From Pseudomonas sp. (GTDB lineage: Bacteria > Pseudomonadota > Gammaproteobacteria > Pseudomonadales > Pseudomonadaceae): a stretch of 10,418 bases of DNA. Where the stretch lies: contig JAURXE010000363.1 in the NCBI GenBank assembly GCA_030654635.1, positions 1 to 10,418 of the forward strand. The letters run 5' to 3'. How positions within the stretch are numbered: position 1 is the stretch's first letter; each line of letters opens with the position of its first letter. Made by a program: the position numbers and the translations under genes. The notes beneath the pieces are model-generated. The model ran no database searches, was not told where the DNA came from, and saw nothing but the letters and a program-made list of their open reading frames with translations. Of this stretch, positions 9,274-10,418 are shown piece after piece.

Positions 9274-10418
<1,145 letters not shown>

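Follow-up and report, generated by a model that had tools for sequence, protein, structure and literature searches.

The closest described counterpart of the gene examined here is MurA of Pseudomonas (UDP-N-acetylglucosamine 1-carboxyvinyltransferase; PF00275, NF006873/PRK09369), whose active-site residues we take to be Cys115, Asp305, Asp369 and Arg397 in E. coli numbering, contributed by both halves of the protein. For P. aeruginosa, an excerpt of one study lists murA as an essential core gene and describes growth arrest upon its knock-down (PMC12977507). Strain variation in metagenome assembly graphs is the subject of MetaCarvel (PMC6710874) and STRONG (PMC8311964), and a literature search on contig ends with premature stops returned no match. 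Here we analyse a stretch of 10,418 nucleotides (the window), the entire contig C322 of a Pseudomonas sp. assembly, in which the murA frame contains an in-frame TAA. The case is most likely an ordinary one, an assembly or sequence artefact at a contig end, and murA continues without interruption on C185, a further contig of this assembly.

An in-frame stop near a contig end

The murA frame starts with an ATG at position 9536 of the forward strand. Both the list of open reading frames and the sequence place a TAA in frame with it at 10346-10348 of the same strand, where it occupies codon 271 and closes an open reading frame of 270 amino acids (codons 1-270, 9536..10345). Translation of the 70 bases between the stop and the contig end (10349..10418, forward strand) extends the MurA frame, with no frameshift, by the 23 residues that the remaining complete codons encode. 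The stop at codon 271 and the resumption of the frame behind it had both been claimed in a sequence-only reading of this DNA, and both are confirmed. Upstream of murA, positions 47-9513 hold an ordinary envelope cluster in which all frames are uninterrupted. Its genes are presumably ptsN, hpf, rpoN, lptB, lptA, lptC, kdsC and kdsD on the reverse strand, and mlaF-E-D-C-B and ibaG on the forward strand.

The 270-residue piece scored 376 bits against the MurA profile NF006873 (cut-off 297) and 360 bits against TIGR01072, below the cut-off of 392.7, which may be because it represents only two-thirds of the full length (270 of about 420 residues). A Cys at residue 117 of the window copy would be the active-site Cys. 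The closest proteins among the best 120 of 8000 scored candidates were 96-97% identical over 270 residues. A wider search of contigs kept 80 loci, named or binned as Pseudomonadaceae, whose best segments share 89-93% identity with the query protein, and a plasmid collection searched by protein gave 138 records, the best listed at 64.1% identity.

The source genome comprises 3,114,235 bases in 791 contigs, is 91.34% complete and 4.49% contaminated, and looks like a metagenome-assembled one. One of its contigs, C185, starts inside murA. Nucleotide comparison of the two contigs revealed that its first 323 bases (C185:1-323) overlap the last 323 of the window (10096..10418, forward strand) at 96.3% identity without gaps, the differences being scattered. 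On C185 codon 271 is a sense codon and the frame is open from MurA residue 188 to 422. This piece scored 344.1 bits against NF006873 and 330.3 bits against TIGR01072, above the first cut-off and, like the window piece, below the second, each being a partial protein. Judged by match position, the two contigs jointly cover MurA residues 1-422, as two unjoined pieces, and the equivalents of Asp305, Asp369 and Arg397 are presumably found past codon 271, that is, on C185. Beyond murA, C185 carries further open frames of a his cluster, which we read as hisG, hisD and hisC.

Differences between the two versions

Within the overlap the two versions differ at 12 bases, comprising 11 synonymous transitions and a sole transversion, which is the base that makes the stop. 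A single base change had been proposed to account for the stop, and C185 differs at codon 271 by that one transversion, with a sense codon in place of the stop. All 12 differences fall within 10156..10346 (forward strand), flanked in the overlap by 60 identical bases before and 72 after.

To put these differences in perspective, 11 transitions and one transversion were placed at random in the overlap in 20,000 trials. The mean was 4.0 synonymous changes out of 12, and at least 11 were never reached, indicating that selection has acted on both versions to preserve the sequence of MurA. One or more stops appeared in 12.75% of the trials, so that a lone stop in a set of 12 differences is not, in itself, a rare event; the striking point is rather that the other 11 differences are all synonymous. 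When changes were placed randomly at third positions, they were all confined in this way, with 60 and 72 bases left identical on the outer sides, in 0.12% of trials. Such confinement would be produced by two haplotypes lying between common anchors in an assembly graph.

A genome of the same genus (G284) provided an outside reference, as a single contig there holds the window region and the C185 region in head-to-tail order, with murA as their overlap. Its MurA match extends over residues 1-422 with no internal stop, and the window contig and C185 are each about 85% identical to it. Over 313 aligned bases of the overlap, the window differs from this genome at 56 positions and C185 at 55. Of the 11 synonymous sites, 5 carry the window's base in this genome, 5 that of C185 and 1 neither of the two, so that neither version stands out clearly as the deviant one.

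Codon 271 and MurA among relatives

The comparison of codon 271 with close relatives, suggested in the sequence-only reading, gave a uniform answer: it is a sense codon for the same single residue in all 27 relatives that were read in frame. These came from 58 matched relatives, for which 29 loci were returned and tried, and 27 had an unbroken frame. The two left out (L027 of genome G002 and L033 of G047) were unrecognised by the motif filter, and both genomes have strong MurA matches. In nucleotide BLAST columns the same 29 relatives had shown apparent stops at codon 271 in 10 cases, beside 16 with the expected residue, 2 with another and 1 gap. The apparent stops were rejected on account of gaps placed inside codons and of X beside them in the translations.

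At the protein level, residue 271 is acidic in all 120 homologues listed (the best 120 of 8000 candidates), 116 of them sharing one of the two acidic residues and 4 having the other. A motif check on the same 120 agreed for 114 of them (110 and 4, respectively) and left 6 unmatched. Their lengths ranged from 350 to 440 residues, and no 270-residue form of MurA occurred among these best 120.

We also surveyed MurA in a sample of 298 genomes of the genus, among them that of the window. A match was found in 297, the exception being a genome that is 78% complete (G222). Among the genomes listed, best E-values were clearly weakened in the window's own genome (G000) and in G164, and less so in G123, whose murA is split over two contigs; in G206 the match covers residues 1-403 only. 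In the single-contig genome G164, murA lies in two pieces in different frames that join near residue 281 (L144 and L147; G164:C1:39957-41218, reverse strand), a few codons from the position of the window's stop, and the break may reflect an erroneous indel in the G164 assembly. Genome G293, with 4% contamination, has two full-length MurA places of equal score (L141, G293:C11:645143-646405; L145, G293:C17:96795-98057), which would reflect gene duplication or else a mixture of genomes in the assembly. Apart from G164, with its split gene, and G293, the other listed genomes have one match each at E <= 1e-60.

Weighing the explanations

The position of the stop near the end of a fragment, together with an uninterrupted overlapping fragment of the same genome, points to an artefact. 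We consider it very probable that the stop arose from an erroneous base at a contig junction between two near-identical haplotypes, and that the gene is not broken. The organism would then possess a single ordinary murA that the assembly divides between two contigs at the point of haplotype divergence. Should the two versions derive from different strains, the window contig would follow one haplotype at its end and C185 the other at its start, and the stop base would most likely be an error of a read or of the consensus, retained in a contig end of presumably thin support. The mixture of strains is suggested by this one junction and by the contamination figure of 4.49%. No divergent overlap was found at five other contig ends, each searched against the whole source genome (the start of C322, the right end of C185 and the left ends of C544, C702 and C789, the C702 query running from base 100). 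Five ends are a small sample and an overlap of this kind need not occur at each of them; the search gave no sign that strain mixing is general in the assembly.

As a set, the 11 synonymous differences resemble a genuine haplotype, to which the stop could then belong as well. A recent, real nonsense allele of murA, carried by a minor strain or by dying cells while C185 represents another strain, would fit this distance between the versions and the frequency with which random changes yield a stop. Against it stand the synonymous pattern, which shows that selection maintained MurA up to very recent times, the lack of a 270-residue form among the best 120 homologues of the 8000 scored, and the essentiality of murA in P. 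aeruginosa as given in the excerpt cited above (PMC12977507). We regard such an allele as unlikely, and it is exceedingly improbable that a minor strain bearing it survives by reading through the stop, by growing without a wall or by means of a MurA encoded on a replicon missing from the assembly. Were the stop true, a pseudomonad living without a complete MurA would be surprising. A further complete MurA encoded at some other place could compensate for a real lesion, an option raised earlier; the relative G293, with its two full-length MurA places, would offer a parallel, and at 91.34% completeness a second gene could be missing from the assembly. However, the suggested search of the source genome for another murA, run with the PF00275 profile on this 91.34% complete assembly, found no compensating copy. 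It returned three places, namely the window, the piece on C185, which belongs to the same locus by its overlap, and a place on C544 that is AroA (417.3 bits against TIGR01356, cut-off 287.25). As the survey also found one strong match per listed genome outside the two exceptions, a second MurA is very improbable. Readthrough of a genuine TAA, whether by suppression or by recoding, another option of that reading, would accord with a frame that goes on without a shift to the contig end, but TAA is an ordinary terminator here, ending 5 of 14 genes of the window and 6 of 10 checked on C185 (11 of 24), murA of C185 among them. No TAA-reading anticodon occurred among the tRNAs at 21 RF00005 places, a clearly incomplete tRNA set, and C185 and the relatives read in frame are free of a stop at codon 271. 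Readthrough can accordingly be given next to no credence.

The artefact at a contig junction is thus favoured, in line with sequence error or metagenomic noise as the option first preferred, which is best supported by the sense codon on C185 and in the 27 relatives. A chimeric contig, also put forward at the outset, may be partly right, in so far as the window end looks like one of two haplotypes. The case calls for caution: where an in-frame stop lies close to the end of a contig, the remaining contigs of the assembly should be consulted before the loss of an essential gene or stop suppression is proposed. Here, that check yielded the uninterrupted stretch.

Compared with known systems, the locus resembles the strain-variant bubbles of metagenome graphs in having two near-identical versions, with the ends of the overlap identical and its inside divergent, in a fragmented assembly; the bubble here would be a putative one, read from two contigs. 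Compared with MurA of Pseudomonas, the window and C185 are alike in sequence, and across the two contigs the gene order ibaG-murA-hisG-hisD-hisC, by the names we presume, is likewise that of the Pseudomonas locus. Unlike Pseudomonas MurA, the window copy has a stop at codon 271; over this stretch the C185 copy is free of it.
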